Made by a program: the position numbers and the translations under genes. This document shows positions 3,516 to 20,513 of a stretch of DNA of 64,000 nucleotides, piece by piece. The notes beneath the pieces are model-generated. The model saw nothing but the letters and a program-made list of their open reading frames with translations, was not told the origin of the DNA and did no database searches. The first letter of the stretch is position 1; every line of letters begins with the position of its first letter. This DNA is from Stenotrophomonas maltophilia (GTDB taxonomy: Bacteria > Pseudomonadota > Gammaproteobacteria > Xanthomonadales > Xanthomonadaceae): NCBI RefSeq assembly GCF_039555535.1, contig NZ_CP154630.1, forward strand, positions 2,555,001-2,619,000, read 5' to 3'.

Positions 3516-3545
3516 GCATCCATATGCCGCGTTCATGCGTATGCA
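3516..3545 (+). promoter_or_regulatory. Putative RpoE (ECF, ChrR-controlled) promoter of tspO
   Basis: GCATCC at 3516-3521 and TATGCA at 3540-3545 are separated by exactly 18 nt. The same GCATCC-N18-TA layout lies before rpoE, the divergent gene at 11859 and the desaturase gene. It would place the transcript start about 25 nt upstream of the tspO ATG. The -35 resembles the TGATCC reported for Rhodobacter RpoE with two mismatches. Confidence 0.5.
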
Positions 3546-3575: not shown

Positions 3576-4061
3576 ATGAAGCGCGGCACACAGATTTCCG
3601 GGTTTCTGGGCTGGTTGGCGATCACCTTCGCTGCGGCCGCATTGGGCGCGTGGGCATCTTCATCGGCGGCCACCTTCTATACCACGCTTGCCCTGCCCGC
3701 GTGGGCGCCGCCGGCCGGCGTGTTCGGCCCGGTGTGGACGCTGCTCTATGCGCTGATGGCGGTTGCGGCTTGGCGGGTCTGGCGCGAGCGCGGCTGGCGC
3801 GGCGCGCAACCGGCACTGCGGCTCTATCTGTTGCAGTTGGCCGTCAACGCACTGTGGAGCTGGCTGTTCTTCGGCTGGAAACTTGGCGCCCTTGCGTTCG
3901 CGGACATTCTTCTGCTGATTGCGCTGGTGTGCGCCACGATCGTCAGGTTTGCGCGCGTCAGCCGCATTGCGGCAGTAATGCTGCTTCCCTACCTGGCCTG
4001 GATCGTGTTTGCCTGCGCGCTGAACTACGCGGTGTGGCGCGCCAATCCCGCACTGCTGTGA
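3576..4061 (+). CDS. tspO: TspO/MBR tryptophan-rich sensory protein
   Basis: This 161-residue integral membrane protein has five hydrophobic segments and the Trp/Pro-rich family signature, including ALPAWAPPAGVFGPVWTLLY (about residues 39-58) and NALWSWLFFGWKLG (near 90-103). TspO proteins bind porphyrins and other tetrapyrroles in the membrane. In Rhodobacter TspO modulates oxygen-regulated photosynthesis genes, and other bacterial TspOs are tied to porphyrin photodegradation and oxidative stress. The ATG at 3576 follows a purine-rich stretch. Its upstream region carries the proposed RpoE-type promoter, which would put it in the photo-oxidative stress response encoded at 11 kb. Confidence 0.9.
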   Translation: MKRGTQISGFLGWLAITFAAAALGAWASSSAATFYTTLALPAWAPPAGVFGPVWTLLYALMAVAAWRVWRERGWRGAQPALRLYLLQLAVNALWSWLFFGWKLGALAFADILLLIALVCATIVRFARVSRIAAVMLLPYLAWIVFACALNYAVWRANPALL

Positions 4062-4479: not shown

Positions 4480-4637
4480 CGTCCGCCGCTGTGTAGATGA
4501 AGAATTCAGGTTTGAATGAAACGGCCTTCACGGGCATCAGGTGGTAGGCGAATGCGCGATTTTGCTTCACCATCCCTGCTAGCCGGATGTATCGCTGGGC
4601 TTTTCCAGCCATCCATGAAACATGAGCCCCTCCGTTG

Positions 4638-6875
4638 ATGCCTTCTGCCCAGTCCACGCCCGACCTTGCGCTGTCCCGTTGTGCGCGCGAACCCATCCAC
4701 ACACCCGGCGCGATCCAGCCCTACGGTGTGCTTCTGGTGCTGGAGCCGCAGTCGTTGCGGGTGCGCGAGCGCGCCATCAGTCAGCCGAGCGTCCTTCAGC
4801 AGTTCGGCGAGCCGTTGCTTCAGCACGTCAGTGAGGTACTCGGTGGCGTGCTGGCGCCCTTCCAGGCGCTGCTCCGGCAGACCACCATCGGCAGCAGTGC
4901 GCATGTGGGCGCCGTGCACCTGGATGGCCACGGCCGCCATCAGCTGCTGGTGCATCGCTCCGCCACCGACCTCCTTGTCGAGCTGGAAGCGCCGGTTGCG
5001 GGCCAGCCCGGTTCTCTTGAAGAGCTGTATCCGGCCATCCGCGAGCTGATGACCGCCATCGAATCGGCCTCGACGGTGGAAGACCTGTGCCAGCTGGCCG
5101 CCGCGCACATGCGCCGGCTCACCGGCTTCGATCGCACCCTGGTCTATCAGTTCGACGCCGGCTGGAACGGCATCGTGGTGGCGGAAGAAGGCAATGGCCT
5201 GTTGCCCTCGTACCTGGACCTGCGTTTTCCTGAATCTGACATTCCCGCCCAGGCACGCGAACTCTACCGCCGCAACCGGGTGCGCCTGATCGCGGACAAC
5301 AACTACACCCCTGCCCCGTTGATGCGGGCCGAGGAGCATCGCGACGCACCGCCGACTGATCTGAGCCTGGCGGTGCTGCGCAGCGTATCCCCGGTGCACC
5401 TGCAGTACATGCGCAACATGGGCACCGGGGCGTCGATGTCGGTCTCGCTGGTCCATGAGGGCCAGTTGTGGGGGCTGATGTCGTGCCATACGGTGCAGCC
5501 GCGCCGCCTGCCCTACCACGTGCGCACGGCCTGCGAGTTCATGGGCCAGATCCTGTCGCTGCAGATTGCCCTGAAGGAGCGTGCGCGCGCGATCGAGGAA
5601 CGCGTGGTTCGCCGTTCCGTGCTGGTCAAGCTGCTGGGACGCATGGCCGGTGACGAGGACTTCATTGCCGCGCTGCGCCTGGATGAGACCAGCCTGCTGT
5701 CGCTGACCGGTGCCGCTGGCGCGGCCATCGTGCACAAGGGCGACTGCATGCGCGTTGGCCGGTGCCCTTCTGCCAGCGACGTCCTGGCGCTGACCGACTG
5801 GTTGTCCGCGCAGCATGCCGGCCAGGAAATCTACTGCACTGATCATCTGGCCGCCGACTGGGCGGAGGGCGCTCGCCTGGCGGAGGTGGCCAGTGGCCTG
5901 CTGGCGGTCTCCATCTCGCAGCTGCATGACAGCTACCTGATGTGGTTCCGCCCAGAGGTGGTGCGTACTGTCAGTTGGGGTGGCGATCCCCGAAAGACCG
6001 CAGCGCCGGATGTCGTGCTGTCTCCACGCCATTCCTTTGAGGCATGGAAGGAGACCGTGCAGCAGCGCAGCCTGCCATGGGGTGACGCCGATCGCGATGC
6101 CGCGCACGAGATGCGAACCGCCATCGTCGACGTCGTGTTGCGCAAGGCCGAGGAAATGGCCGAGCTGAACGAGCAGCTCCTGCGCAGCAACAAGGAACTG
6201 GAGGCATTCTCCTATTCGGTCAGCCACGACCTGCGCGCCCCCTTCCGCCATATCGTCGGTTATTCGGAGCTGCTGGGCAGCTCGGCCGGTGAACGCCTCA
6301 ACGAGACCGAGCGCCGCTTCCTGGACACCATCGTCGAGTCGGCAAAGTCCGCCGGAACGCTGGTGGACGACCTGCTCAGCTTCTCGCAGATGGGACGCTC
6401 CACGCTGGGACGGGTGCGGCTGGACATGGCTGCGCTGGTCGGGGATGTCCGCAAGAGCCTGGCGCTGGACTACGCCGGTCGCGATGTGCAGTGGACGATG
6501 GCGCCGCTGCCGGAGGTGGAAGCCGACCCGACCATGCTGCGCCTGGTCTGGCAGAACCTGTTGTCCAATGCGGTCAAGTTCACCCGCGAGCGCGACCAGG
6601 CGGTGATCGAGGTCGGCCACGAACGCAGCGACGATGAAGATCACTTCTTCGTGCGCGACAACGGCTGCGGCTTCGACATGCGCTATGTGGACAAACTGTT
6701 TGGCGTGTTCCAGCGCCTGCATCACGTCGAGGAATTCGAAGGCACCGGCATCGGCCTGGCCAACGTGCGTCGCATCATCGGCCGCCACGGCGGCCGCACC
6801 TGGGCCGAAGGCGAACCCGGCAAGGGCGCCACGATCCACTTCACCCTACCCCGTTCCACAGGAGATTACCCATGA
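4638..6875 (+). CDS. bphP: Bacteriophytochrome histidine kinase
   Basis: The 745-residue protein has the full PAS-GAF-PHY photosensory module plus a histidine kinase. Cys15, before the PAS domain (SRCAREPIHTPGAIQPYG), is the expected biliverdin attachment site of bacteriophytochromes. The GAF domain has the DIP motif at 201-203. The PHY tongue carries WGG and PRHSF (about 463-467), the PRxSF motif. The kinase has SHDLRAP with His530 and an ATPase domain with NLLSNAVKF, DNGCGFD and GTGIGLA. It would sense red/far-red light and phosphorylate the response regulator, whose ATG overlaps this stop (ATGA). A TTG lies directly before the ATG chosen. No haem oxygenase gene for biliverdin is in the window. 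Confidence 0.95.
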   Translation: MPSAQSTPDLALSRCAREPIHTPGAIQPYGVLLVLEPQSLRVRERAISQPSVLQQFGEPLLQHVSEVLGGVLAPFQALLRQTTIGSSAHVGAVHLDGHGRHQLLVHRSATDLLVELEAPVAGQPGSLEELYPAIRELMTAIESASTVEDLCQLAAAHMRRLTGFDRTLVYQFDAGWNGIVVAEEGNGLLPSYLDLRFPESDIPAQARELYRRNRVRLIADNNYTPAPLMRAEEHRDAPPTDLSLAVLRSVSPVHLQYMRNMGTGASMSVSLVHEGQLWGLMSCHTVQPRRLPYHVRTACEFMGQILSLQIALKERARAIEERVVRRSVLVKLLGRMAGDEDFIAALRLDETSLLSLTGAAGAAIVHKGDCMRVGRCPSASDVLALTDWLSAQHAGQEIYCTDHLAADWAEGARLAEVASGLLAVSISQLHDSYLMWFRPEVVRTVSWGGDPRKTAAPDVVLSPRHSFEAWKETVQQRSLPWGDADRDAAHEMRTAIVDVVLRKAEEMAELNEQLLRSNKELEAFSYSVSHDLRAPFRHIVGYSELLGSSAGERLNETERRFLDTIVESAKSAGTLVDDLLSFSQMGRSTLGRVRLDMAALVGDVRKSLALDYAGRDVQWTMAPLPEVEADPTMLRLVWQNLLSNAVKFTRERDQAVIEVGHERSDDEDHFFVRDNGCGFDMRYVDKLFGVFQRLHHVEEFEGTGIGLANVRRIIGRHGGRTWAEGEPGKGATIHFTLPRSTGDYP

Positions 6876-9733: not shown

Positions 9734-10426
9734 TCACGCCGCCGGATCACGCGTGCCTGCCGCGATCCGGTTGATGTCCGCGCACTCCACCGTGGCAGGC
9801 GGATGCTCTCTTCCTGCCAGTGCGATCATCGCCTGGCCCACCGCCAGATTGCTGGTGACCAGTGAAGGGACGAGTGCGCCCGCCAGTTTCATCAGCGGCG
9901 CGCCACCCCAGTACAGGGGCTTGAGCACCGCGTGGCGCGTGCCGGTTCCCGATACCGGCCGCACGCCTCCCGGGCGCAGCATCACGGTACGCACCGGCAT
10001 CCTGCGGAGCGCCAGTTCGATTTCGCCCTTGATCCGCAGCGGCATCACCCGGCTCTGCGGGTCCGCGCCGGCGCCGGACACATACAGAAAGCAACCGTCG
10101 GGATTCACTGCCGCCCACGCGCGGGCCACGGCCAGTGTGGTGTCCAGCGTCACCCGCCGGTACTCGGCTTCGGCGGTGCCCACCGGAGGCGCGCCCGCGC
10201 AATAGAAGCACGCGTTGAAGCCAGCCAGATCGTCACGCTGCTCATCGATGCGCAGGAAATCCGGCACGACCCGCTCGCTTCCCGCACCGCTGAGGCTGCC
10301 CGGACGCCGTACCAGCGCGGTCAGATGGCCGACCTGCGATGAGCGCTGGCAGGCCAACGCCACGCCCTGCCCCACCAACCCGGCGGCGCCGGTCAACAGA
10401 ACACGCAATGCTTCTGCCCTCGCCAT
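9734..10426 (-). CDS. NAD(P)-binding epimerase/dehydrogenase-like protein of the RpoE-ChrR operon
   Basis: The 230-residue product starts with LRVLLTGAAGLVGQGVALAC, a Rossmann nucleotide-binding motif (GxxGxxG), and has the conserved YVSGAGAD and MLRPGGVRP segments of atypical short-chain dehydrogenase/NmrA-like proteins. The ATG at 10426 is preceded by GGGAGA. It sits 17 bases downstream of chrR, so it is the third gene of the sigma-factor operon. Similar NAD(P)-binding genes accompany RpoE-ChrR modules in other proteobacteria, as far as I recall. Substrate unknown; a role in lipid or quinone redox chemistry is only a guess. Confidence 0.8.
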   Translation of the reverse strand: MARAEALRVLLTGAAGLVGQGVALACQRSSQVGHLTALVRRPGSLSGAGSERVVPDFLRIDEQRDDLAGFNACFYCAGAPPVGTAEAEYRRVTLDTTLAVARAWAAVNPDGCFLYVSGAGADPQSRVMPLRIKGEIELALRRMPVRTVMLRPGGVRPVSGTGTRHAVLKPLYWGGAPLMKLAGALVPSLVTSNLAVGQAMIALAGREHPPATVECADINRIAAGTRDPAA

Positions 10427-10443: not shown

Positions 10444-11115
10444 CTAGAGCTTCACGAAACGCTGCACCTTCCGCGCCAGCCAGCCACTGAACACCAGGGG
10501 TGCATCCAGCGCCGACACGCAGATACACGGCACCCCTGGCGCGGTCACCGGCTGGTGCTCCACGTCCCCATCCAGGTCCGCCACGTCGCCGGGCGCGAAC
10601 AACCCCAACGCATCATTGTACGAGCCCCGCAGGATCTGGGTCAGCTCGCTTCGGCCGTGGCTGTGCATCGGCAGGCACTTGCCCGGGGCAATCTTCAGCA
10701 TGATCAGCGAAGGCATCTGCTCGGCACGGATGCAGTGCACGCCCGGCGCCATCCAGCGCCAGCGCAGGCCACTGAGCGACGCGCCGAAATACGGGTGAAG
10801 TGACGCAGGAAGATGGTCCGGATCGGCTTCGGGGCGCTCTCTGGAAACGGTCCGTGATGACACTGCCGCGGCAGGCACATCCGTCGCCAGGCGCATCAAC
10901 ATCGCGTCGCGCAACTGCTCGCGGCGTAGATCGCCCGTGGATGGCTGGGTCTGTTCCAGCAAGACCGATCCGATCGCCTCGGCCTCGCGCAGGCGCTGGC
11001 GACAGTGCGGGCACTGCTCCAGATGGGCGCCCGCCACGATGCTCAACGGCGCCGGAAGCGCGCCTGCGGCGTAGCTCATCAGTGTGGATTCGTGCAGATG
11101 GTGGTGCGGATTCAC
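10444..11115 (-). CDS. chrR: ChrR-family zinc-binding anti-sigma factor
   Basis: The 223-residue protein has two parts. An N-terminal zinc-finger anti-sigma domain carries LEQCPHCRQRL (His/Cys ligands near 24-41). A C-terminal cupin domain carries MHSHGRSELTQILRGSY and DGDVEHQP, whose His/Glu residues would bind a second metal. In Rhodobacter ChrR holds RpoE inactive and releases it when singlet oxygen is present; the cupin is needed for that response. The start codon is GTG and overlaps the rpoE stop (GTGA), so sigma and anti-sigma are translationally coupled. Confidence 0.92.
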   Translation of the reverse strand: MNPHHHLHESTLMSYAAGALPAPLSIVAGAHLEQCPHCRQRLREAEAIGSVLLEQTQPSTGDLRREQLRDAMLMRLATDVPAAAVSSRTVSRERPEADPDHLPASLHPYFGASLSGLRWRWMAPGVHCIRAEQMPSLIMLKIAPGKCLPMHSHGRSELTQILRGSYNDALGLFAPGDVADLDGDVEHQPVTAPGVPCICVSALDAPLVFSGWLARKVQRFVKL

Positions 11116-11735
11116 AGCGCACCTCCCACTTTCGACTGCAGTTGCAGGAACGCACGCCGCAGGTGCGATTTCACCGTGCCCAGCGGCATGCCCAGTGCCT
11201 CGGCGATCTCGCTGTGGCTCTTGGCCTCGAAGTAGGACATGCGCACCAGCCGCGCCTGCACTGCCGGCAACTCATTGATGCGTTGGCGAAGCCGGGCCTG
11301 GTCGGCGAACTGTTCGGCGCTGCTGCGCTCGACCACGTCCATCGTTGCCGCGTCTTCCACCGCCACCTGTACCTGCATCCAGCTGCGCTCGCGGCGCACG
11401 CGGTCGATATGCAGGTTGCGGGCGATGCGGTACAGCCAGGTGCTCAACGCACCCTGCGCGGCATCATAGTCGGCCGCGCGCAGCCACAGGCGCAGCAGGC
11501 ACTCCTGCGCCAGCTCCTCGGCCACCGCCTCGGGCGCGCCCAGCCCGCGCAGATAGACGCACAGGCGCGGCATGAAATGGTCGTAGATCCGCATGAAACA
11601 GTCGCGGTCGCGCAGCCGCGCGACACCGTCCATGTCGCCGGCCCAGTTTTTCGGCTCGCTGCTGGGCTGCTGGGAGCTGGACACGATGCGTGCGCTGTTG
11701 AAGTTGGCGAGGGTGCTGGCGGCGTCAGGATACAT
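11112..11735 (-). CDS. rpoE: ECF sigma factor RpoE (ECF11-like, singlet-oxygen response)
   Basis: Region 2 of sigma is visible as RDCFMRIYDHFMPRLCVYL and AEELAQECLLRLW, and region 4 as LPAVQARLVRMSYFEAKSHSEIAEALGMPLGTVKSHLRRA. I chose the ATG at 11735 (207 residues) over upstream starts because the proposed autoregulated promoter (11769-11798) lies just before it. Even so, the first ~30 residues look poorly conserved, and an internal Met could be the start. It is followed by chrR with a GTGA overlap. The pairing with a cupin-type ChrR points to the singlet-oxygen class of ECF sigma factors and not to the envelope-stress RpoE of enterobacteria. Confidence 0.9.
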   Translation of the reverse strand: MYPDAASTLANFNSARIVSSSQQPSSEPKNWAGDMDGVARLRDRDCFMRIYDHFMPRLCVYLRGLGAPEAVAEELAQECLLRLWLRAADYDAAQGALSTWLYRIARNLHIDRVRRERSWMQVQVAVEDAATMDVVERSSAEQFADQARLRQRINELPAVQARLVRMSYFEAKSHSEIAEALGMPLGTVKSHLRRAFLQLQSKVGGAL

Positions 11736-11768
11736 CTGCGTTCGCGGCGGGCGGGTGAAGGTCTGTCC

Positions 11769-11798
11769 CCTGTACGCGCGGGAATGGCAATCGGATGC
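11769..11798 (-). promoter_or_regulatory. Putative autoregulated promoter of the rpoE-chrR operon
   Basis: On the minus strand GCATCC (11798-11793) is followed after exactly 18 nt by TACAGG (11774-11769). The same hexamers with the same spacing recur before the desaturase gene. Transcription would start about 28 nt before the rpoE ATG. It forms a divergent pair with the site at 11811-11840. Confidence 0.55.
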
Positions 11799-11810
11799 AG
11801 CCCGCATTGC

Positions 11811-11840
11811 GCATCCAACCCGCCCCGCCCGCCGTACGAC
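11811..11840 (+). promoter_or_regulatory. Putative RpoE promoter of the divergent gene at 11859
   Basis: GCATCC (11811-11816), an 18-nt spacer and TACGAC (11835-11840) face away from the rpoE promoter. The GCATCC boxes of the two promoters form an inverted repeat 12 bp apart. The leader would be very short, about 13 nt. Confidence 0.5.
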
Positions 11841-11858
11841 CTGGACCCGCCCTTACGG

Positions 11859-12635
11859 ATGAATGCCATGCGCATCGCCTGGCTGTTGTTGTGCCTGCCC
11901 CACGCCGGACTGGCGACCCCTTGGCTGCGCAGCGAGGGCGTGGCGACGTCCTCGCAGGGCCGGATCCTCTACCACGAAGTTCACTGGCGCCGCGACGCCA
12001 GCGAGGGGGCCGAGCACTGGGTGCTGTACCAGTGCCCCGGTGGCCAGCCGTTCGCCCGCAAGCACCTGCCGGCCAGCCCCCTGGCGCAGGCTCGTGGCTA
12101 TACGCTGCAGGACCGGCGCAGTGGCCAGACGGCCGAGATCGAGGCCGCCAGCGTCGCTGTGTCCGTCGTCTGGAAGGAGGATGCCGCCAGCCCGCCCCGG
12201 CAGCGCAGGCTTGATTTGCCGCCGGATGCGGTGATCGATGCGGGATTCGACGCGGCGGTGCGCCTGCACTGGACAGCGCTGATGCAGGGCGAGCGCGTGT
12301 CGATGCCGTTCCTGGTGCCCGGGCGGCAGCGCTACTTCCCGGTGCAGGTGCGGCATACCGGCGCCCTGCGCTGGCAAGGCATCGACGCCCAGTCGATCGA
12401 GGTCAGCCTCGACACCTGGTATGGCGGCGTCGCACCCCGCCTGTCGCTGGTCTATGCCAACGCCGACAGGCGCCTTCTGGAATTCAATGGCACCAGCAAC
12501 CTGCGCGATGCACGCGGCACCTATCCGCGGGTGACGGTGCGCTTCAGCGCACCTCCCGCGCAACGCCCCGCGTCTGAGTGGCAACAGGCATGGGCGCAGC
12601 CACTGGTCGACCGCTGCCCTGTTACGAACACGTGA
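11859..12635 (+). CDS. Secreted hypothetical protein divergent from rpoE
   Basis: The 258-residue product has a signal peptide (MRIAWLLLCLPHAGLA) followed by a mature domain with no catalytic motif I recognise. ATG at 11859 or 11868 are both possible; the second gives a cleaner signal sequence. Sequences such as WHTALMQGERVSMPFLVPGR-like blocks and YANADRRLLEFNGTSNLRD suggest a beta-rich periplasmic protein. The gene is divergent from rpoE behind its own RpoE-like promoter and precedes the lipid operon. A role in the membrane response to photo-oxidative stress is inferred from context only. Confidence 0.75.
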   Translation: MNAMRIAWLLLCLPHAGLATPWLRSEGVATSSQGRILYHEVHWRRDASEGAEHWVLYQCPGGQPFARKHLPASPLAQARGYTLQDRRSGQTAEIEAASVAVSVVWKEDAASPPRQRRLDLPPDAVIDAGFDAAVRLHWTALMQGERVSMPFLVPGRQRYFPVQVRHTGALRWQGIDAQSIEVSLDTWYGGVAPRLSLVYANADRRLLEFNGTSNLRDARGTYPRVTVRFSAPPAQRPASEWQQAWAQPLVDRCPVTNT

Positions 12636-12659
12636 AGCCAACATTCACCGCAACACGTC

Positions 12660-12689
12660 GCATCCATTGCGCATTCTGGTGCGTACAGG
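12660..12689 (+). promoter_or_regulatory. Putative RpoE promoter of the lipid-modification operon
   Basis: GCATCC (12660-12665), an 18-nt spacer ending in GCG, and TACAGG (12684-12689) match the rpoE promoter hexamers exactly, including the GCG before TA. Transcription would begin about 22 nt before the desaturase ATG at 12717. Confidence 0.6.
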
Positions 12690-12716
12690 AAGACACGACA
12701 CCCGCCGAGATCCGCC

Positions 12717-13667
12717 ATGGCCTCTGTATCGCCCCTCCCCCGTCGACGCTGGCGCCTGCTGCGCACCCTGCAGCGCTGGGTTGATACCGGCGAAGCCGCG
12801 GACGTTGGCGCGGAACAGTCGGGCCGCATCGACTGGCTGCGTGCGGTGCCGTTCGCACTGATGCATGTGGCGTGCATCGCGGTGATCTGGGTAGGTGTCT
12901 CATGGACGGCTGTCATCGTGGCCGCAGCGCTCTACGCGGTGCGCATGTTCGCCATCACCGCGTTCTATCACCGCTACTTCTCACACCGCACCTTCCAGGC
13001 ACCGCGCGCGGTGCAGTTCGTGTTCGCGGTGATCGGCGCGGCCAGCGTGCAGCGCGGCCCGCTGTGGTGGGCGGCTCATCATCGCCACCATCACCGCCAC
13101 GCAGACCAGCCACTGGACCCGCATTCGCCGCGCGAGGGAGGCTTCTGGCGCAGCCACATGGGCTGGTTCCTGACCCGCGAAGCCTTCGCCACCGACCTGT
13201 CGCGGGTGCCGGACCTGGCGCGCTTCCCGGAACTGCGCTGGCTGGACCGCTTCGACACCGCCATTCCCGTGCTGCTGGCCATCGGCCTCTATGCATTGGG
13301 CGCAGCACTGGAACACTGGGCGCCGGGCCTGCACACCTCCGGCCCGCAGTTGCTGGTGTGGGGATTCTTCATTTCCACCATCGTGCTGTTCCACGCCACG
13401 GTCACCATCAACTCGCTGGCCCACCGCTTCGGTCGTCGCCGCTTCGAGACCCGCGACGACAGCCGCAACAACCTCTGGCTGGCCCTGCTGACGTTCGGCG
13501 AAGGCTGGCACAACAACCATCACTTCTTCCCCGGCACCGTACGCCAGGGCTTCCGCTGGTGGGAGATCGACCTGACCTGGTACGGGCTGCGCGTGATGGC
13601 GGCGTTCGGCCTGGTCAAGGGACTCAAGCCCATCCCCGAATGGGTGCTGGCAAAGGCGAGGTACTGA
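12717..13667 (+). CDS. Membrane fatty-acid desaturase (stearoyl-CoA desaturase type)
   Basis: The 316-residue protein has the three histidine clusters of di-iron membrane desaturases: HRYFSH at 85-90, HHRHHH near 121-126, and HNNHH near 265-269. Four hydrophobic helices surround them. Such enzymes introduce a double bond, usually at delta-9, into a fatty acyl chain using oxygen and an electron donor. It is the first gene of an eight-gene plus-strand operon; the next start is only one base after its stop. The likely job is to make or alter an unsaturated acyl chain that the downstream methyltransferases then modify. Confidence 0.9.
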   Translation: MASVSPLPRRRWRLLRTLQRWVDTGEAADVGAEQSGRIDWLRAVPFALMHVACIAVIWVGVSWTAVIVAAALYAVRMFAITAFYHRYFSHRTFQAPRAVQFVFAVIGAASVQRGPLWWAAHHRHHHRHADQPLDPHSPREGGFWRSHMGWFLTREAFATDLSRVPDLARFPELRWLDRFDTAIPVLLAIGLYALGAALEHWAPGLHTSGPQLLVWGFFISTIVLFHATVTINSLAHRFGRRRFETRDDSRNNLWLALLTFGEGWHNNHHFFPGTVRQGFRWWEIDLTWYGLRVMAAFGLVKGLKPIPEWVLAKARY

Positions 13668-13668
13668 C

Positions 13669-14946
13669 ATGCGCATCGCCATCATCGGTTCAGGCATCTC
13701 GGGGCTGGCCAGCGCCTGGTGGCTGCAGGAGCGGCACCAGGTGACGCTGTTCGAGGCCAACGATTACCTGGGCGGCCACACCCATACCCACGACGTGCAG
13801 ATAGACGGCACGCGCATGGCCGTGGACACCGGCTTCATTGTCTTCAATCCCCGGCACTACCCGCTGCTGACGGCACTGTTCGATGAGCTGGGCGTGGCCT
13901 CGCAGCCGACCACCATGAGCTTTTCGATGCACAGCGAGCGCAGCGGCGTGGAGTACAACGCCACCTCGCTGGATGGCCTGTTCTGCCAGCGACGCAACCT
14001 GGTATCGCCGCGCTTCTGGGGCATGCTGGCCGACCTGCGCCGCTTCTATCGGGATGCCCCGCTGTTGCTGGGCGAGGACGAAGGCCCAACGCTGGGCCAG
14101 TACCTGCGCGATCAGCGCTACGGCGAGGCCTTCATTGAAGAGCACCTTCTGCCGATGGCCTCGGCACTGTGGTCGTCTCCCACCGCCACGGTGCAGGACT
14201 TCCCCGCGCGCTATCTGGCCCAGTTCATGGCCAACCACCAGATGCTGCAGATGACCGGGCGGTCCTCCTGGCGGGTCGTTACCGGCGGGTCGGCCCGTTA
14301 CGTGGATGCACTGCGCCGCCGTTGGCGGGTGCATGAGCGCCTGCAGTGCCCGGTGCAGCGGGTGGAGCGCACGCCTGAGGGCGCACGCGTGCACAGTGCC
14401 GCCGGCGTCGAAGCCTTCGACGAAGTCATCCTGGCCTGCCATAGCGACCAGGCCCTGGCCCTGCTGGGTGATGCCGACCCCGTCGAGCGCGAGGTGCTGG
14501 GTGCCATCCGCTACCAATCCAACGAAGCGGTACTGCATACCGATGCCTCGCTGCTGCCACGCAACCGCAAGGCCTGGGCCGCCTGGAATGCACATGTACC
14601 GCGGGATCCAACCGCGCCCTGCACGGTCAGTTACTGCATGAACCTGCTGCAGGGCCTGCCCGGCAGCACGCCATTGGTGGTCACCCTCAACCGCAGCGAA
14701 GCCATCGACCCGGCCAGGGTGCTGCGCACGCTGCACTATGCACACCCGGTGCACGATCATGCTGCGGTTCGCGCGCAGCAGCGATGGGCAGACCTGCAGG
14801 GCCATCGCCACACCTGGTTCGCAGGGGCCTACTGGGGCTGGGGCTTCCATGAGGATGGTATTCGCAGCGCCCGCCGCGTGGTGGATGCGCTGTTGGCCTG
14901 CGCACCGCATCGCCAGGTATCGCTGGCGCGCGAGGTGGCGGCATGA
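13669..14946 (+). CDS. FAD-dependent amine-oxidase-like oxidoreductase
   Basis: The 425-residue protein opens with an FAD-binding motif, IAIIGSGISGLASAWWL, then E at the end of strand 2 and YLGGHTHTH, typical of the NAD(P)-binding/flavin amine oxidase superfamily (desaturase/isomerase types). WWGWGFHEDGIRSARRVVDAL-like residues near the C-terminus complete the FAD site. The family occurs next to DUF1365 and cyclopropane synthases in many bacteria, and related flavoproteins act on fatty-acyl chains. Its stop overlaps the DUF1365 start (ATGA). Confidence 0.9.
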   Translation: MRIAIIGSGISGLASAWWLQERHQVTLFEANDYLGGHTHTHDVQIDGTRMAVDTGFIVFNPRHYPLLTALFDELGVASQPTTMSFSMHSERSGVEYNATSLDGLFCQRRNLVSPRFWGMLADLRRFYRDAPLLLGEDEGPTLGQYLRDQRYGEAFIEEHLLPMASALWSSPTATVQDFPARYLAQFMANHQMLQMTGRSSWRVVTGGSARYVDALRRRWRVHERLQCPVQRVERTPEGARVHSAAGVEAFDEVILACHSDQALALLGDADPVEREVLGAIRYQSNEAVLHTDASLLPRNRKAWAAWNAHVPRDPTAPCTVSYCMNLLQGLPGSTPLVVTLNRSEAIDPARVLRTLHYAHPVHDHAAVRAQQRWADLQGHRHTWFAGAYWGWGFHEDGIRSARRVVDALLACAPHRQVSLAREVAA

Positions 14947-15710
14947 GCGCCAGCGCACTCTATTTCGGGCAGGTGATGCATCGCCGGCATCACCCGCATC
15001 CGCATACGTTCCGTTATCCGGTTGCACAACTGCTGCTCGACCTGGATGAACTAGAGACCGTGTTTGCCGGGCGCTGGCTGTGGTCGGTCAATCGGCGCAA
15101 CCTTGCCGAGTTCCGGCGCAGCGACTATTTCGGCGATCCCGCACAGCCTCTGGCCGACGCCGTGCGCGACCATGCCGCGCAGACGCTTGGCCATCGACCT
15201 TCGGGGCCGGTACGCCTGCTGACGCACCTTCGCTTTGCCGGGCATGTGTTCAACCCGGTCAGTTTCTACTACTGCTACCAGGCCGACGGCAGCTCGCTGG
15301 ACTGCATCGTGGCCGAGATCACCAATACGCCCTGGAAGGAGCGGCACGCGTACGTGCTGCCGGTCGCCACGGCCGTCCACGAAGGTGCGTCACTGCGTTG
15401 GCAGTTCGACAAGCGATTCCACGTCTCGCCGTTCATGCCGATGGACTGCCGTTACGACTGGCGCTTCAACAGCCCCGATGAGGACCTGCGTGTGCACATG
15501 CAGGTCTGGCGAGACGGCATTCGCCAGTTCGATGCCACCCAGACGCTGCAACGCCGCCCTCTGGATGGCCGCGGCCTGGCGCGGGTTCTGGCCTGCTATC
15601 CACTGATGACCACCCAGGTGGTGGCCGCCATCCACTGGCACGCACTGCGGCTGTGGCTGAAGCGCAACCCCGTACACGACCACCCCACCCTTGCCGGGAA
15701 ACCGCGATGA
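14943..15710 (+). CDS. DUF1365 family protein
   Basis: The 255-residue protein starts with ALYFGQVMHRRHHPHPHTF and contains FNPVSFYYCY, HVSPFMPMDCRYDW and LKRNPVHDHP, the hallmark blocks of DUF1365. The biochemical role of the family is not settled. It nearly always sits between an amine-oxidase-like flavoprotein and a cyclopropane-fatty-acid synthase, as it does here, so a step in the same acyl-chain modification is likely. Both ends overlap neighbouring genes by four bases (ATGA). Confidence 0.9.
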   Translation: MSASALYFGQVMHRRHHPHPHTFRYPVAQLLLDLDELETVFAGRWLWSVNRRNLAEFRRSDYFGDPAQPLADAVRDHAAQTLGHRPSGPVRLLTHLRFAGHVFNPVSFYYCYQADGSSLDCIVAEITNTPWKERHAYVLPVATAVHEGASLRWQFDKRFHVSPFMPMDCRYDWRFNSPDEDLRVHMQVWRDGIRQFDATQTLQRRPLDGRGLARVLACYPLMTTQVVAAIHWHALRLWLKRNPVHDHPTLAGKPR

Positions 15711-16966
15711 ACTCGATGACACCTTCGGTGACCCTGCCGCGCCCCAGCGCGCTGGACGCCTTCCTGCGCCGCCGGCTGCTGGCACAGCTTGCCCCCCTGC
15801 GTGACGGCCACCTGTGCGTGCGCGATGCCCTTGGCGAGGTCCGGCTGGGCAACGCCCATGCCGGGCTGCAGGTGACGGTGACCATTGATGACCCGGCGTT
15901 CTACCGGAAGGTCGCTGCGCAGGGCAGCGTCGGCGCCGGCGAGAGCTACATCCAGGGCGAATGGCACTGCGATGATCTGGTGGCTCTGATACGCCTGCTG
16001 GTCCGCAACCGCGACCTGCTTGATGGCATGGAGCAGGGCCCGGCCCGTGTGGCTGGCTGGCTGCTGCGCGGCTGGAACCGGCTGCACCGCAACAGCCGCG
16101 AGGGCAGCCGGCGCAACATCGCCGCCCACTACGACCTGGGCAACGATTTCTTCGCCCTGTTCCTGTCGCCGGACCTGATGTACTCGTCGGCGCTGTTCAC
16201 CAGCGAATCCGAATCGCTGGAGTCTGCCTCGCGCCGCAAGCTGGACCGCATCTGCCAGCAGCTGCAACTCACGCCGGGTGACCGGGTGGTGGAAATCGGT
16301 ACCGGCTGGGGTGGCTTCGCGGTGCACGCGGCGCAGCACTATGGCTGCCACGTCACCACCACCACCATCTCCGCCGAACAGCATGCGCTGGCCGTCGAGC
16401 GCGTTCGGGCCGCCGGCCTGCAGGACCGGGTCACGTTGCTGATGCAGGACTACCGTGACCTGCAGGGCCGGTTCGACAAGCTGGTTTCGATCGAAATGAT
16501 CGAAGCGATCGGCGCCGAGTACCTGGACACCTACATGGCCACGCTGCAGCGGCTGCTGAAGCCCGATGGCGTTGCCCTGCTGCAGGCCATCACCATCGAG
16601 GACCATCGCTACGAGCAGGCCCGGCGCAGCGTCGACTACATCAAGCGCTACGTGTTCCCCGGCAGCTTCATTCCCTCCATCAACGCGATCATGGCGGCCA
16701 AGACGCGGTCCAGCGACCTTCAGCTGATCGCCCAGCAGGATTTCGGCCATTCCTACGCGCTGACCCTGCGCACCTGGCGCCAGCGCTTCCTCGCCCAGCT
16801 GCCCGCCGTGCAGGCACAGGGGTTCGATGCGCGCTTCTGCCGCCTGTGGGACTTCTACCTGGCCTACTGCGAAGGCGGCTTCCTGGAGCGTTCGATCGGT
16901 GTTTCGCATCTGCTGCTGGCGCGCCCGGGCCATCGACCCGCGGTCCCGGCTGGCGAAGGCAACTGA
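15707..16966 (+). CDS. cfa: Cyclopropane-fatty-acyl-phospholipid synthase
   Basis: The 419-residue protein has the family layout: an N-terminal lipid-binding region with GVGAGESYIQGEW-like residues, YDLGNDFFALFLSPDLMYSSALF, the SAM motif VVEIGTGWGGFA (near 193-204), SIEMIEAIG and YCEGGF near the C-terminus. The enzyme uses SAM to methylenate or methylate double bonds of phospholipid acyl chains at the membrane. The ATG overlaps the DUF1365 stop. A related gene is an RpoE target in Rhodobacter. Whether this one makes cyclopropane, a branched methyl or a furan-acid precursor cannot be told from sequence. Confidence 0.92.
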   Translation: MNSMTPSVTLPRPSALDAFLRRRLLAQLAPLRDGHLCVRDALGEVRLGNAHAGLQVTVTIDDPAFYRKVAAQGSVGAGESYIQGEWHCDDLVALIRLLVRNRDLLDGMEQGPARVAGWLLRGWNRLHRNSREGSRRNIAAHYDLGNDFFALFLSPDLMYSSALFTSESESLESASRRKLDRICQQLQLTPGDRVVEIGTGWGGFAVHAAQHYGCHVTTTTISAEQHALAVERVRAAGLQDRVTLLMQDYRDLQGRFDKLVSIEMIEAIGAEYLDTYMATLQRLLKPDGVALLQAITIEDHRYEQARRSVDYIKRYVFPGSFIPSINAIMAAKTRSSDLQLIAQQDFGHSYALTLRTWRQRFLAQLPAVQAQGFDARFCRLWDFYLAYCEGGFLERSIGVSHLLLARPGHRPAVPAGEGN

Positions 16967-16967
16967 A

Positions 16968-17516
16968 ATGCGCCGGTTCTGGGCCAACCTGCTTGGCAAC
17001 CAGCTGGTCTGGCTGTGCGCGGTGGCTGGTGCCGGGCGCGGCTGGCAGTGGCCCGCGTTGCTGGCCGCGTCGCTGTATATCGGCAGCCAGCTGCTGACGT
17101 CGGCGCATCCCCGACTGGACCTGCGGCTGCTGCTGCTAGCGTTGGCCTGCGCCTGGCTGGTCGACGCCAGCGCCGCCGCCAGCGGCACCGTGCGCTACGC
17201 CGCTGCCCCGCTGGGATGGGCGCCGCCGCCCTGGATCATGGCCTTGTGGGCTTCATTCGCCATGACCCTGAGCACCTCGATGCGCTTCCTGCAGCGACAC
17301 CCTGCCCTGCCGCCCCTCTTCGGCCTGGTGCTGGCGCCACTGGCCTACCTGTCGGCCGCGCGTGGATTCGGCGCGGTGCAGTTCAACAGCCCGACGTGGC
17401 ATGGCGTCCTGGTCCTCGGCACGGGCTGGGGCATTGCGCTTTCCCTCCTGTGCCGCGCCGCCCTTGGCGGCACGCGTACTACGCCACACCCCCCTCTCGC
17501 CGGAGCGTCATCATGA
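16968..17516 (+). CDS. DUF2878 membrane protein
   Basis: The 182-residue protein begins MRRFWANLLGNQLVWLCAVAGAGRGW, the typical DUF2878 start, and has five to six hydrophobic helices. Function unknown. It starts one base after the cyclopropane synthase stop and overlaps the next start by ATGA. DUF2878 genes recur in similar ChrR/cyclopropane-synthase clusters, so it is probably a membrane partner of the modification pathway. Confidence 0.88.
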   Translation: MRRFWANLLGNQLVWLCAVAGAGRGWQWPALLAASLYIGSQLLTSAHPRLDLRLLLLALACAWLVDASAAASGTVRYAAAPLGWAPPPWIMALWASFAMTLSTSMRFLQRHPALPPLFGLVLAPLAYLSAARGFGAVQFNSPTWHGVLVLGTGWGIALSLLCRAALGGTRTTPHPPLAGASS

Positions 17517-18298
17517 TCAACCTGCTCTGGGTGCTGCTCTACGCGCTACTGGTGATGAGCTGGGGTTGGGCCTGGCAGCGCCGCCACCACAACATCGGCG
17601 TTGTGGATGTGCTCTGGGCCAAAGGCGTGGCTGCCGCCGCGCTGTTGCTGGCGCTGCTGGGCGATGGTGCGGTGACGCCACGGGTGGCGCTGGCTGTGCT
17701 CGGCGGCCTGTGGGGCGGTCGCCTGGCCCTTCATCTCTGGCATCGGGTCCGGCACGAAGCAGAGGACGGGCGCTATCGCTACCTCCGAGAGCACTGGCAG
17801 GGACACCAGGGAAAGATCTTCGCGTTCTTCATGGCGCAGGCACTGCTGGTGGTGCTGTTTGCGCTGCCCTTCGTCGCGGTCGCTGCCAATCAAGCCGCTG
17901 GCACCCCCCCCTGGGCGTTGGCGGCCGCGTTCGTCTGGCTGCTGAGCGTGGGCGGAGAAGCGCTGGCCGACCGCCAGCTGGCCCGGTTCCGCGCGAACCC
18001 GGCCAACAAAGGCCGTACCTGCCGTGATGGGCTCTGGCGGTATTCCCGCCACCCCAACTACTTCTTCGAGTGGCTGCACTGGTTCACCTACGTGCTGCTG
18101 GCCGTCGGCTCCCCGCTGTGGTGGCTGGCCTGGCTCGGCCCCGTGCTGATGTATGTATTCCTGCGCTATCTGAGCGGCATCCCGTTCACCGAAAAGCAGG
18201 CCCTGCGCAGCCGCGGCGACGACTACCGCGCCTACCAGCGCAGCACGCCGATGTTCTTCCCCTGGTTCCCCCACCCTTCCAAGGAGCATTCCGCATGA
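17513..18298 (+). CDS. DUF1295 steroid-5-alpha-reductase-like membrane protein
   Basis: The 261-residue membrane protein has about seven hydrophobic helices and a C-terminal signature with FRANPANKGRTC, LWRYSRHPNYFFEW and YRAYQRSTPMFFPW. This region is shared with steroid 5-alpha reductases and isoprenylcysteine methyltransferases, and it binds NADPH or SAM near the membrane surface. A reductase acting on an acyl or enone intermediate is plausible but unproven. Start and stop both overlap neighbours by ATGA. Confidence 0.88.
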   Translation: MINLLWVLLYALLVMSWGWAWQRRHHNIGVVDVLWAKGVAAAALLLALLGDGAVTPRVALAVLGGLWGGRLALHLWHRVRHEAEDGRYRYLREHWQGHQGKIFAFFMAQALLVVLFALPFVAVAANQAAGTPPWALAAAFVWLLSVGGEALADRQLARFRANPANKGRTCRDGLWRYSRHPNYFFEWLHWFTYVLLAVGSPLWWLAWLGPVLMYVFLRYLSGIPFTEKQALRSRGDDYRAYQRSTPMFFPWFPHPSKEHSA

Positions 18299-19368
18299 GC
18301 GCGATACCGTCACTGAATCCGGCCGAGGAAGCAGAAACCGGGCTGACCGCCTGGGCCGAACGCGGCCTGGTGCCGGACGCTGCGCTGCGTGCCGGTATCC
18401 GACGGCTGTGCGCGCAGCGCCTGCAGGAAGAATCGGCAGGTGGTATCGAAGCGCAGTCCGCGCGCTTCAGCCGCCGCATCGCCGAACTGGCCGACAGCCC
18501 GCTGGCACTGCATACCGATGCAGCCAATCGCCAGCATTACGAAGTGCCTGCGGCGTTCTTCCAGGCCTGCCTGGGCAAGCGTTTGAAGTACAGCAGCTGC
18601 TACTACCCCAACGGCCACGAAACGCTGGACCAGGCTGAAGAGGCGATGCTGGAGCTGTACGGCCAGCGCGCTGGCCTGGCCGATGGACAGCACATTCTCG
18701 AACTGGGCTGTGGCTGGGGCTCGCTGACGCTGTGGATGGCCGAGCGCTACCCGCGCGCAACGATCACGGCCGTGTCCAACTCACACAGCCAGCGCGAACA
18801 CATCATGGCCCAATGCCAGGCGCGCGGACTGCCCAATGTGGAAGTGCTCACCCGTGACGTGAACCAGCTGGAACTGCCCACCGCGCAGTTTGATCGCTGC
18901 GTTTCGGTCGAGATGTTCGAGCACGTGCGCAACTACGAGCGCCTGCTGGCGCGCATTGCACAGTGGCTGAAGCCGGACGGTGCGTTGTTCGCGCACATCT
19001 TCGCCCACCGCACGCTGATGTACCCGTTCGAAACCGAGGGCGGCGACAACTGGATGGGCCGCCACTTCTTCACCGGCGGCCTGATGCCCGCCGCCGATAC
19101 CTTGCTGCATTTCCAGCGCGACCTGCGGCTGGATCAGCGCTGGTTGCTGGACGGCACCCACTACCAGCGCACTGCCGAACACTGGCTGGCCAATCAGGAC
19201 GCGGCACGCGATCGGGTGATGCCGGTGCTGGCGGCGACCTATGGGCCTGCGGCTGCGCGCATCTGGTGGCAACGCTGGCGGATGTTCTGGATGGCGTGTG
19301 CCGAGTTGTTCGGTTACGACGATGGCCAGCAATGGCTGGTGGCCCATTACCTGTTCCGTCCCCGCTGA
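18295..19368 (+). CDS. Second cyclopropane-synthase-like SAM methyltransferase
   Basis: This 357-residue protein belongs to the same superfamily as the enzyme at 15707 but is shorter at the N-terminus and diverged: KRLKYSSCYYPNGHETLDQAEEAML, the SAM motif ILELGCGWGSLTLW (near 134-147), SVEMFEHVRNYE and MYPFETEGGDNWMGRHFFTGGLMP. The presence of two different enzymes of this family in one operon suggests two successive methyl transfers or two substrates. Its ATG overlaps the DUF1295 stop. Confidence 0.9.
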   Translation: MSAIPSLNPAEEAETGLTAWAERGLVPDAALRAGIRRLCAQRLQEESAGGIEAQSARFSRRIAELADSPLALHTDAANRQHYEVPAAFFQACLGKRLKYSSCYYPNGHETLDQAEEAMLELYGQRAGLADGQHILELGCGWGSLTLWMAERYPRATITAVSNSHSQREHIMAQCQARGLPNVEVLTRDVNQLELPTAQFDRCVSVEMFEHVRNYERLLARIAQWLKPDGALFAHIFAHRTLMYPFETEGGDNWMGRHFFTGGLMPAADTLLHFQRDLRLDQRWLLDGTHYQRTAEHWLANQDAARDRVMPVLAATYGPAAARIWWQRWRMFWMACAELFGYDDGQQWLVAHYLFRPR

Positions 19369-19376
19369 GGTGTGAC

Positions 19377-19910
19377 ATGCGCATGTTCTCGCTGCTTCCG
19401 CTGATCGCGGTCGGCCTGTTCGGCTCGGGCTGCTCGTCCAGCGACACCCGGCCACTTCCGCGTGCGCCCTCGGTGGATGTGCCGCGCTTCATGGGCGACT
19501 GGTATGTGATCGCCCATATTCCGTCCTGGCCCGAGCGCGAGGCCTACGATGCGGTGGAAAGCTATGCCCTGAAGCCGGACGGGCGCATCCAGACCACCTT
19601 CACCTATCGCAAGGGCAGCTTCGATGCCCCGCCGAAGTCGATGCACCCCATCGGCCGTGTCGAAGAGGAAGGCCATGGGGCGGTCTGGGGCATGCAGTTC
19701 ATCTGGCCGATCCAGGCCGAGTACATCATCGCCTGGCTGGATGACGACTACCGACAGACCATCGTGGCACGCAGCAAGCGCGATTACGTGTGGTACATGG
19801 CGCGCACGCCCCAGGTGTCCGACGGCGACTACCAGAAAGCCGTGCAGCGCATCGCCGACATGGGTTACGACATCCACCGGCTGCGGCGTGTGCCGCAGTC
19901 CATCCGGTAG
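19377..19910 (+). CDS. blc: Lipocalin-family outer membrane lipoprotein (Blc-like)
   Basis: The 177-residue protein has a lipoprotein signal (LLPLIAVGLFGSGC, with Cys near 18) and then the lipocalin signature FMGDWYVIAHIPSWPER, followed by a YRKGSFD loop and a final RRVPQSIR tail. Blc-type lipocalins bind fatty acids or lysophospholipids and sit in the outer membrane. The gene starts eight bases after the methyltransferase stop and ends the operon. It may carry or scavenge damaged or modified lipids made by the preceding enzymes. Confidence 0.9.
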   Translation: MRMFSLLPLIAVGLFGSGCSSSDTRPLPRAPSVDVPRFMGDWYVIAHIPSWPEREAYDAVESYALKPDGRIQTTFTYRKGSFDAPPKSMHPIGRVEEEGHGAVWGMQFIWPIQAEYIIAWLDDDYRQTIVARSKRDYVWYMARTPQVSDGDYQKAVQRIADMGYDIHRLRRVPQSIR

Positions 19911-20003
19911 TGCATGGCAGCGAAGTGCCGATTGCGTTCTTCGTCATGCATCGCCCGGCAGAGGGTGCCAGAATTGCCGGACAGACCTGAGCCGGGGATC
20001 AGC

Positions 20004-20513
20004 ATGATGGGCAGCCACGCAGAGGCGACATGGAACGGGCTTGAAGTGCGGCAGATCCGTGCGGGCGACCTGGATGCAATCTGCGCCCACCGCGAAGCCA
20101 TGTTCCGCGATAGCGGGCGAACCGAGGAGGTCCTGCGGGCGATGGCGGCTCCTTTCCGTTCCTGGCTGGCGCCGCGCCTGGCCTCTGGCGAGTACTTCGG
20201 CCATGTCCTTGCAGACCACGGCAGAACCATCGCCGGCATCGGCCTGATGCTGATCGACTGGCCGCCCCACCCTGCCCATCCGGACCAGGGCTACCGCGGC
20301 TACGTCCTCAACGTCTACGTGGAACCGGAGTATCGCCGCCGCGGTATCGCCCGGAAGCTGATGGCCCTGGCAGACGACGCCTTCACCGAACGTGGCGCCA
20401 CTTACGCAGTCCTGCATGCCACCGCGCAGGGGGCGCCACTGTACGCCGACCTTGGCTGGGCTGGAACCAGCGAGATGGCGCGCAGCCTGCACGGCAACGA
20501 TCAGACACCATGA
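20004..20513 (+). CDS. GNAT family N-acetyltransferase
   Basis: The ~169-residue protein has the GNAT core: VRQIRAGDLDAICAHREAMF at the start, LNVYVEPEYRRRGIARKLM (the acetyl-CoA loop, R-x-x-G-I-A) and a C-terminal LYADLGWAGTSEM strand. It transfers an acetyl group from acetyl-CoA to an amine; the substrate is unknown. The ATG at 20004 follows GGGGAT; a second ATG is at 20007. It is separate from the lipid operon, about 95 bases away. Confidence 0.85.
   Translation: MMGSHAEATWNGLEVRQIRAGDLDAICAHREAMFRDSGRTEEVLRAMAAPFRSWLAPRLASGEYFGHVLADHGRTIAGIGLMLIDWPPHPAHPDQGYRGYVLNVYVEPEYRRRGIARKLMALADDAFTERGATYAVLHATAQGAPLYADLGWAGTSEMARSLHGNDQTP

Follow-up and report, generated by a model that had tools for sequence, protein, structure and literature searches.

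The locus analyzed here lies in a window of 64,000 nucleotides of Stenotrophomonas maltophilia (contig NZ_CP154630.1, positions 2,555,001 to 2,619,000; by the window we mean this whole stretch), and its features are collected in Table 1. A preliminary description had recognized an RpoE-ChrR pair opposite an operon of eight closely spaced genes, and these genes and their order proved to be right. The ends of the FAD gene and the DUF1365 gene, of the DUF1365 gene and CFA1, of the DUF2878 and DUF1295 genes, and of the DUF1295 gene and CFA2 overlap by 4 bp each; 1 bp separates the desaturase gene from the FAD gene (as read from the open reading frames) and CFA1 from the DUF2878 gene; and the widest spacing, between CFA2 and the lipocalin gene, is 8 bp. 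An additional gene between rpoE and the desaturase gene, here called gene 1, had been overlooked, and the range given for the locus, which began at 11112, left chrR outside, together with chrA, the third gene, which comes after chrR. A search for terminator-like sites at 19300-20100 gave none, and the 3' end of the operon is therefore taken from the published S. maltophilia cluster considered below. The same gene blocks recur in distant proteobacteria, and thus the arrangement is beyond chance.

Table 1. Features of the sigma-Ec/ChrR locus (positions in the window)
Feature	Position	Strand	Evidence
ChrA, 230 aa, resembling NAD(P)-binding oxidoreductases, third sigma-operon gene	9734..10426	-	ORF
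ChrR anti-sigma factor, cupin-like C-terminal domain	10444..11115	-	TIGR02451
RpoE-type ECF sigma factor, corrected start, 207 aa	11112..11735	-	Sigma70_r2 and r4_2 above cut-off
Sigma-Ec box GCATCC-N16-CGTAC before rpoE	11772..11798	-	motif scan
Sigma-Ec box before gene 1	11811..11837	+	motif scan
Gene 1, 258 aa, probably exported, beta-barrel resembling DUF1849/LolA/RseB folds	11859..12635	+	
Internal sigma-Ec box, 31 bp ahead of the desaturase ATG	12660..12686	+	motif scan
Membrane fatty-acid desaturase	12717..13667	+	PF00487, 91.2 bits
UfaD-like FAD amine-oxidase-family desaturase	13669..14946	+	PF01593
UfaO-like DUF1365 protein, putative furan-ring-forming step	14943..15710	+	PF07103, 289.6 bits
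CFA1, UfaM-type fatty-acyl methyltransferase	15707..16966	+	diagnostic residues, UfaM clade
DUF2878 protein	16968..17516	+	PF11086, 112.7 bits
DUF1295 membrane protein, predicted ene-reductase-like fold, candidate CFA2 partner	17513..18298	+	
CFA2, FufM-type methyltransferase, coclaurine N-methyltransferase-like	18295..19368	+	identity, clade, structure match
Probably exported lipocalin (Lipocalin_2), final gene in the published cluster	19377..19910	+	PF08212, 147.1 bits

The sigma operon encodes a ChrR-family anti-sigma factor together with an ECF sigma factor, the pairing expected of ECF11 RpoE-ChrR systems. ChrR scored 159.6 bits against the ChrR-family model TIGR02451 (cut-off 124.5) and carries an HxxxCxxC motif, as judged by eye; it scored 143.1 bits against the narrower equivalog model NF051881, under the cut-off of 300, and 26 bits against Cupin_7, just under the cut-off of 27. 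The sigma factor scored 83.4 bits against the sigma70-ECF model TIGR02937 (cut-off 42.9). ChrA had no match in the Pfam search, and its length is consistent with that of smlt2379 (693 bp). The start previously proposed for RpoE, at 11807, would be upstream of the gene's own promoter box; it is ruled out by the box at 11798-11772, provided that this box is the rpoE promoter. The ATG at 11735 follows the box by 37 bp, and rpoE homology begins at the residue of this ATG in four other genomes (G094, G526, G302, and G393).

The sequence GCATCC-N16-CGTA was found upstream of rpoE, gene 1, and the desaturase gene in nine of the nine Stenotrophomonas genomes counted, with a constant 31 bp between the desaturase box and the ATG. 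The relatives were not a random sample: six (G094, G526, G540, G529, G533, and G531) were located through an exact box match, one locating hit in G540 being the desaturase box itself and the box in the other five being at rpoE or gene 1, and for the other two (G302 and G393) CFA2 served to find the locus. A further genome (G545) was left out, as its fetched stretch held no gene 1 or desaturase match, and 17 of the 26 genomes of the genus scanned for boxes were taken no further, among them one (G530) with no box match. The 9000 shuffles in this comparison were simple base shuffles. Genome-wide, the exact form GCATCC-N16-CGTAC occurs six times, and the three occurrences outside the locus are all within open frames. 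The CGTA form, which was fixed after the relatives had been inspected, has 16 matches (reversed control: 2 on one strand and 0 on the other); many of the 16 fall within long open frames and could have arisen by chance. When one mismatch was allowed, the window held 4 matches, a number reached in 10 of 100 shuffles and hence not significant, so we place weight only on the exact form and its conservation. The boxes would be used as promoters, and the one ahead of the desaturase gene is, on its sequence, probably an internal promoter.

The locus is almost certainly orthologous, judged by gene types and layout, to the rpoEc-chrR-chrA operon and nine-gene cluster smlt2375-smlt2367 of S. maltophilia KJ (PMC11832516). 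The types of gene, their order, the divergent layout, and the adjoining sensor-kinase genes (smlt2382-2380 in KJ) are all shared. The cluster, its switch, its regulation, and its phenotype are already known in S. maltophilia from that work, and what is new here is the assignment of a product. The nine genes are induced 165- to 697-fold in a chrR mutant, and the system affects superoxide tolerance and ceftazidime susceptibility (PMC11832516). Singlet-oxygen tolerance was unchanged (PMC11832516), an observation that we counted against the assignment proposed below; the label "singlet-oxygen-type" given earlier to the sigma/anti-sigma pair thus suits its family but not the KJ phenotype. The KJ paper treats the nine genes as one operon, and its section 3.6 places boxes only before rpoEc and smlt2375; its text calls both methyltransferases CFA synthases (CfaS1 and CfaS2), and the word furan does not occur in it.

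Homologs of all four members of the furan fatty acid (FuFA) pathway of Rhodobacter sphaeroides and Rhodopseudomonas palustris, UfaM, UfaD, UfaO, and FufM, are present at the locus. Their chemistry has been shown in Rhodobacter and Rhodopseudomonas, and control in Rhodobacter is likewise by sigma-E/ChrR (PMC7380195). For the known products, ions of 322/165/109 are given for the 9M5 ester and a mass of 336.5 is reported for 9D5 (PMC7380195). In those organisms ufaM (RSP2144 of Rhodobacter) and fufM (RPA0924 of R. palustris) stand apart from ufaD-ufaO (PMC7380195), whereas here all four types occur in a single gene run, along with the desaturase, DUF2878, DUF1295, and lipocalin genes. The role of DUF1365 had been called open, a view outdated by Rhodobacter UfaO, which belongs to DUF1365 and has been shown to form the furan ring (PMC7380195). 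Our references for identity were the UfaM-, UfaD-, UfaO-, and FufM-type proteins of Rhodopseudomonas, in place of those of R. sphaeroides. The FAD and DUF1365 genes are adjacent and were assigned by Pfam and by identity: the FAD enzyme is 42% identical to a Rhodopseudomonas protein adjoining the UfaO and UfaM types, and the DUF1365 protein, encoded by the single gene of its kind found in the genome, is 43% identical to the UfaO type. Among 76 UfaO rows (near-duplicates kept), H13, R15, H21, and K157 (window numbering) were 100% conserved and H135 was 99% conserved. Since identity to the UfaM, UfaD, and UfaO types is only 41-43%, substrate and chain length may differ. Among CFA2 loci of at least 18 kb in alphaproteobacterial relatives (the best 80 of 582), 29 of 54 contained UfaD, UfaO, DUF1295, and CFA2 homologs; 20 of these 29 also contained RpoE and ChrR and 19 a CFA1 homolog.

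CFA1 and CFA2 had both been described as cyclopropane synthases. The canonical cyclopropane fatty acid synthase residues are C139, G236, and H266 (E. coli numbering), which we take to be catalytically important. Neither protein has this set: CFA1 carries S/E/Q at these positions, and CFA2 carries S/E/H, with F in place of I268. The Rhodopseudomonas UfaM-type proteins (19 rows from 15 distinct loci) carry S/E/Q or A/E/Q, with S at position 139 in 18 and A in 1, as do 35 of 35 other DUF1365-adjacent rows (S in 32, A in 3; near-duplicates kept); C/G/H was found in 5 of 5 canonical rows and in 9 of 9 rows of a third Rhodopseudomonas type. Methyltransferase rows shorter than 280 aa were removed from the residue counts, as were cfa1 rows that contained a stop, and the window's own copies (L003, L004, L025, and L040) were excluded from these and from the locus-content counts. 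In a tree of 66 rows CFA1 fell within the UfaM clade (support 100/99). Its identity to the UfaM type (41.0%) and to the third type (42.2%, with canonical residues and from a shorter extracted stretch) does not separate its relatives, so the assignment to UfaM rests on residues, tree, and neighbors. A gammaproteobacterial UfaM, that of Halomonas, yields 11-methyloctadec-12-enoate in E. coli (PMC12089945).

CFA2 is 52% identical to the Rhodopseudomonas FufM-type protein and forms one clade with it (support 100/100 in the same tree). Among solved structures it is closer to coclaurine-type N-methyltransferases (6gkv, E 1.2e-74) than to E. coli CFA (6bqc, E 1.2e-25), and so the earlier label of a second cyclopropane-synthase-like enzyme does not fit. 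Within Rhodopseudomonas, identity to the local UfaM type is 26.4% for the FufM type and 35.5% for the third type; the reported identities to Rhodobacter UfaM are 26% for RPA0924 (FufM) and 38% for RPA3082 (PMC7380195). We likened the FufM type to RPA0924 by this identity to UfaM alone (26.4% versus 26%). The FufM-type gene, by score class, is present in 16 of 16 Rhodopseudomonas genomes; R. palustris CGA009 was not found by name among the best 80 of 582 relatives, and R. palustris JSC-3b was. In Stenotrophomonas, no CFA2 match was obtained in at least one genome (G090). The Arabidopsis protein AtFUFM1/LIME1 was named for its similarity to FufM (PMC10940516).

Structure prediction was run on DUF1295 and gene 1. 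The predicted DUF1295 structure resembles sterol and steroid reductases, of the delta14-sterol reductase or 5-alpha-reductase fold, which makes the protein a candidate membrane C=C reductase partnering CFA2. Its gene often adjoins CFA2 and was absent beside it in 9 of 26 loci in one count and in 16 of 79 in another (own-genus loci removed; these separate counts are given because a count of 135 loci holds duplicates). DUF1295 is not obviously required, as FufM alone sufficed for the dimethyl product in Rhodobacter (PMC7380195). We think it rather unlikely that DUF1295 is instead an ICMT- or PEMT-like methyltransferase. A CFA1 homolog shares a short locus with DUF2878 in 13 of 19 loci, one being this genome and one from the same genus. 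Gene 1 has a signal-peptide-like start (by eye); it had no Pfam or NCBIfam match, and its resemblance to DUF1849 is purely structural. A more distant likeness is found in Chlamydomonas, in which a single list of SAK1-dependent genes induced by singlet oxygen includes CFA1, CFA2, DUF1365, and DUF1295, with the CFA2 gene id listed also as the coclaurine N-methyltransferase CPLD27 (PMC4067076). That case differs in being from a eukaryote, with a long gene list and no common regulator, and was likened by gene names.

Taken with the UfaD, UfaO, and UfaM matches, the FufM-like CFA2 and DUF1295 make the cluster look like a complete set for a dimethyl FuFA. We consider it probable that this is a sigma-Ec/ChrR-controlled FuFA cluster, whose product, to go by sequence, is most likely an oxidant-trapping furan fatty acid in the membrane. 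The preliminary description had guessed at such a product, and homology, tree, diagnostic residues, and synteny support that guess apart from its two cyclopropane synthases. Upon release of sigma-Ec by ChrR, the three boxes would fire, giving three outputs: rpoE-chrR-chrA, and with it autoregulation; gene 1; and the eight-gene run that starts with the desaturase and ends with the lipocalin. The substrate would be membrane phospholipids, in which the desaturase would provide a monounsaturated chain. CFA1 (UfaM) would add a methyl group from SAM and shift the double bond, with no cyclopropane ring being closed, the FAD enzyme (UfaD) would introduce a second, conjugated double bond, and the DUF1365 protein (UfaO) would insert an oxygen atom from O2 and close the furan ring. 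CFA2 (FufM) would then add the second ring methyl, with DUF1295 acting alongside it as a membrane C=C reductase, and gene 1 and the lipocalin would be exported lipid-binding proteins.

That both CFA-family enzymes instead make cyclopropane fatty acids from the desaturase products is the interpretation of the S. maltophilia paper itself (PMC11832516), and PF02353 scores above cut-off for both. We regard it as very improbable: neither protein has the full canonical residue set, CFA1 lies in the UfaM clade, and two further CFA genes elsewhere in the genome (L001 and L002) keep those residues. Most likely, then, CFA1 and CFA2 do something other than their annotation states. The coclaurine-type structural matches of CFA2 would fit a cluster whose product goes no further than a monomethyl FuFA or an incomplete methyl-branched acid, with CFA2 and DUF1295 acting on another substrate such as an amine lipid or a quinone, and FufM homologs are reported in only a subset of FuFA organisms (PMC7380195). 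Such an outcome seems to us unlikely, given the identity and shared clade of CFA2 with the Rhodopseudomonas FufM type. Moreover, the FufM-named AtFUFM1/LIME1 presumably belongs to the same N-methyltransferase-like family as CFA2.

If the cluster is indeed a FuFA cluster, DUF1295 could conceivably be a fifth, unrecognized FuFA enzyme in proteobacteria and green algae, a membrane NADPH ene-reductase acting on the reactive enedione that arises as the furan traps an oxidant, or on a double bond left at the FufM step; we put this forward tentatively. Were it true, the cluster would both make a dimethyl furan shield and detoxify or recycle its spent form; as the Stenotrophomonas shield would draw its chains from the operon's own desaturase, its FuFA may differ in chain length from 9M5/9D5. 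In an opportunistic pathogen, a stress cluster with very strong induction now has a named candidate product, the cyclopropane annotation of two of its genes is argued against, and a probable internal promoter has been placed. For genome annotation, the S/E/Q signature may separate UfaM proteins from cyclopropane synthases, and the uncharacterized DUF1295 family is tied, as a candidate, to furan lipid methylation.

The locus is most likely a furan fatty acid (FuFA) cluster under the control of σEc and ChrR, with a dimethyl FuFA as its product. The window covers positions 2555001–2619000 of a single-contig genome of 4.83 Mb. All eight lipid-modification genes of the preliminary description were found in place, joined by gaps of 1–8 bp or overlaps of 4 bp, but a ninth gene (gene 1; see table) had been overlooked. 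The facing RpoE–ChrR module is indeed a sigma operon, but one comprising rpoE, chrR and chrA, with rpoE starting at 11735 rather than 11807. Named homologs of gene 1 are mostly from Stenotrophomonas, with one entry each from Pseudoxanthomonas, Thermomonas and Luteimonas among the best 120 of 169, which would place the organism in or very near Stenotrophomonas.

This arrangement is described for S. maltophilia KJ in the available text of PMC11832516: a three-gene rpoEc–chrR–chrA set, a divergent nine-gene cluster (smlt2375–2367) and a two-component cluster (smlt2382–2380). As judged by one RNA-seq run and qRT-PCR of selected genes, smlt2375–2367 rises 165- to 697-fold in a chrR mutant and falls back without rpoEc. 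Removing the nine genes from the chrR mutant reverts almost completely both its menadione tolerance and its susceptibility to ceftazidime; tolerance of singlet oxygen is unaffected. The authors write of membrane lipid modification and of cyclopropane (CFA) synthases, naming no product, and the word "furan" is absent from the main text as available. In the literature searched, which covers few subscription papers, no paper joined furan fatty acids with Stenotrophomonas, and smlt2375 and smlt2374 appeared only in PMC11832516. Section 3.1 of that report also puts the identity of S. maltophilia ChrR to a "P. aeruginosa" ChrR entry at 94%, a value high enough to suggest mislabelling or transfer of that entry.

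The chemistry is known from other organisms. According to the accessible portions of PMC7380195, UfaM methylates cis-vaccenate and UfaD introduces a conjugated double bond. Ring closure to the furan, with an oxygen derived from O2, is the work of UfaO (DUF1365), and FufM (RPA0924) adds a second methyl group; RPA0923 deletions appear in the strain table of the paper. In a Halomonas genome ufaM, ufaD and ufaO stand one after another, and that ufaM yielded 11-methyloctadec-12-enoate in E. coli (PMC12089945, in part). Across 76 DUF1365 rows, H13, R15, H21, K157 and Y171 (window UfaO numbering) are invariant and H135 is 99% conserved; these residues could possibly form the metal or oxygen site of an oxygenase. 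FuFA-type clusters also occur on plasmids, typed conjugative in Burkholderia and Rhizobium, mobilizable in Acinetobacter and non-mobilizable in Cupriavidus, the last two with photolyase genes nearby.

Is the first methyltransferase, CFA1, a cyclopropane synthase, as annotated? Its identity is 41.0% to the Rhodopseudomonas UfaM-type protein versus 42.2%, over a shorter stretch, to a third type of CFA-like Rhodopseudomonas protein, and 37% to both CFA genes of its own genome; plain identity does not settle its class. A 220-row methyltransferase alignment was read at positions 139, 236 and 266 of the E. coli enzyme. C/G/H stands there in 9/9 third-type rows and in five canonical synthases, two of them from this genome and the others from E. 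coli, S. meliloti and Lactiplantibacillus. CFA1 carries S/E/Q; S or A, E, Q are found in Rhodopseudomonas UfaM-type proteins (19 rows, read here as 15 distinct loci) and in 35/35 other DUF1365-adjacent rows. In a 66-row maximum-likelihood tree, CFA1 falls together with 29 further rows, among them each of the six UfaM-type rows included (100/99); the canonical rows of this tree form no single group, and long branches are seen for two rows. From its sequence, then, CFA1 is predicted to be UfaM-type.

CFA2, in turn, is predicted to be FufM-type. By sequence, the solved structures closest to it are those of coclaurine and related N-methyltransferases (6gkv, E 1.2e-74), with E. coli CFA synthase far behind (E 1.2e-25), and it is 52% identical to a FufM-type gene of G499, a genome whose genus we take as Rhodopseudomonas. 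A gene of this score class is present in 16/16 genomes of that genus. The Rhodopseudomonas FufM-type gene and the remaining CFA-like gene are 26.4% and 35.5% identical to the local UfaM-type; PMC7380195, as available, measures against a different reference, Rhodobacter UfaM, and lists FufM at 26% and RPA3082 at 38%. The single contig of G514 carries FufM-type, UfaM-type and third-type (fragments) at 1.04, 2.88 and 3.40 Mb, which, we infer, fits locus numbers 0924, 2569 and 3082. A FufM-like gene of Arabidopsis is named AtFUFM1/LIME1 (PMC10940516, in part).

The predicted σEc box GCATCC-N16-CGTAC has six matches genome-wide, three of them within 0.92 kb at this locus (reversed control, 0); the relaxed GCATCC-N16-CGTA has 16 (reversed control, 2). 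All three boxes, before rpoE, gene 1 and the desaturase gene, are perfect to the relaxed form in 9/9 Stenotrophomonas genomes, namely the window's and eight relatives (six picked by exact box match, two, G302 and G393, by CFA2; G545 was left out). The desaturase box lies 31 bp from the ATG in all nine, and 0/9000 base-shuffled gene 1–desaturase spacers had zero mismatches. Given this internal box, gene 1 can be transcribed separately from the eight-gene block, with which TPM values of 744 for smlt2375 versus 2088 for smlt2374 (PMC11832516, available text) agree.

Features of the window
Feature	Position	Strand	Remark
σEc box GCATCC-N16-CGTA	3516-3541	+	before TspO/MBR gene
TspO/MBR gene	3576-4061	+	3' of σEc box
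Bacteriophytochrome-type histidine kinase	4635-6875	+	then response regulator, hybrid kinase; whole stretch from the σEc box, 3516-9731
Gene 1	11859-12635	+	ninth gene
UfaO (DUF1365)	14943-15710

Further relaxed matches precede a YceI-like/cytochrome b561 pair (L229, another locus of this genome, 1562-2777, +), which fits the regulon member yceA–cybB–yceB of PMC11832516 as available, and a fasciclin-like exported protein (locus L221, 895-1494, −); these names were assigned by eye. The stretch from TspO to the hybrid kinase fits the co-regulated smlt2382–2380 of strain KJ; the words TspO and phytochrome are absent from the available text of PMC11832516. On Rhizobium johnstonii plasmid pRL12, a TspO gene (L035, 9166-9633) adjoins a sigma–ChrR/DUF1295/CFA2 module. 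A single regulon may serve both light sensing and photo-oxidative defence. FuFA clusters as such are already known; the dimethyl furan fatty acid predicted here is a directly testable product.
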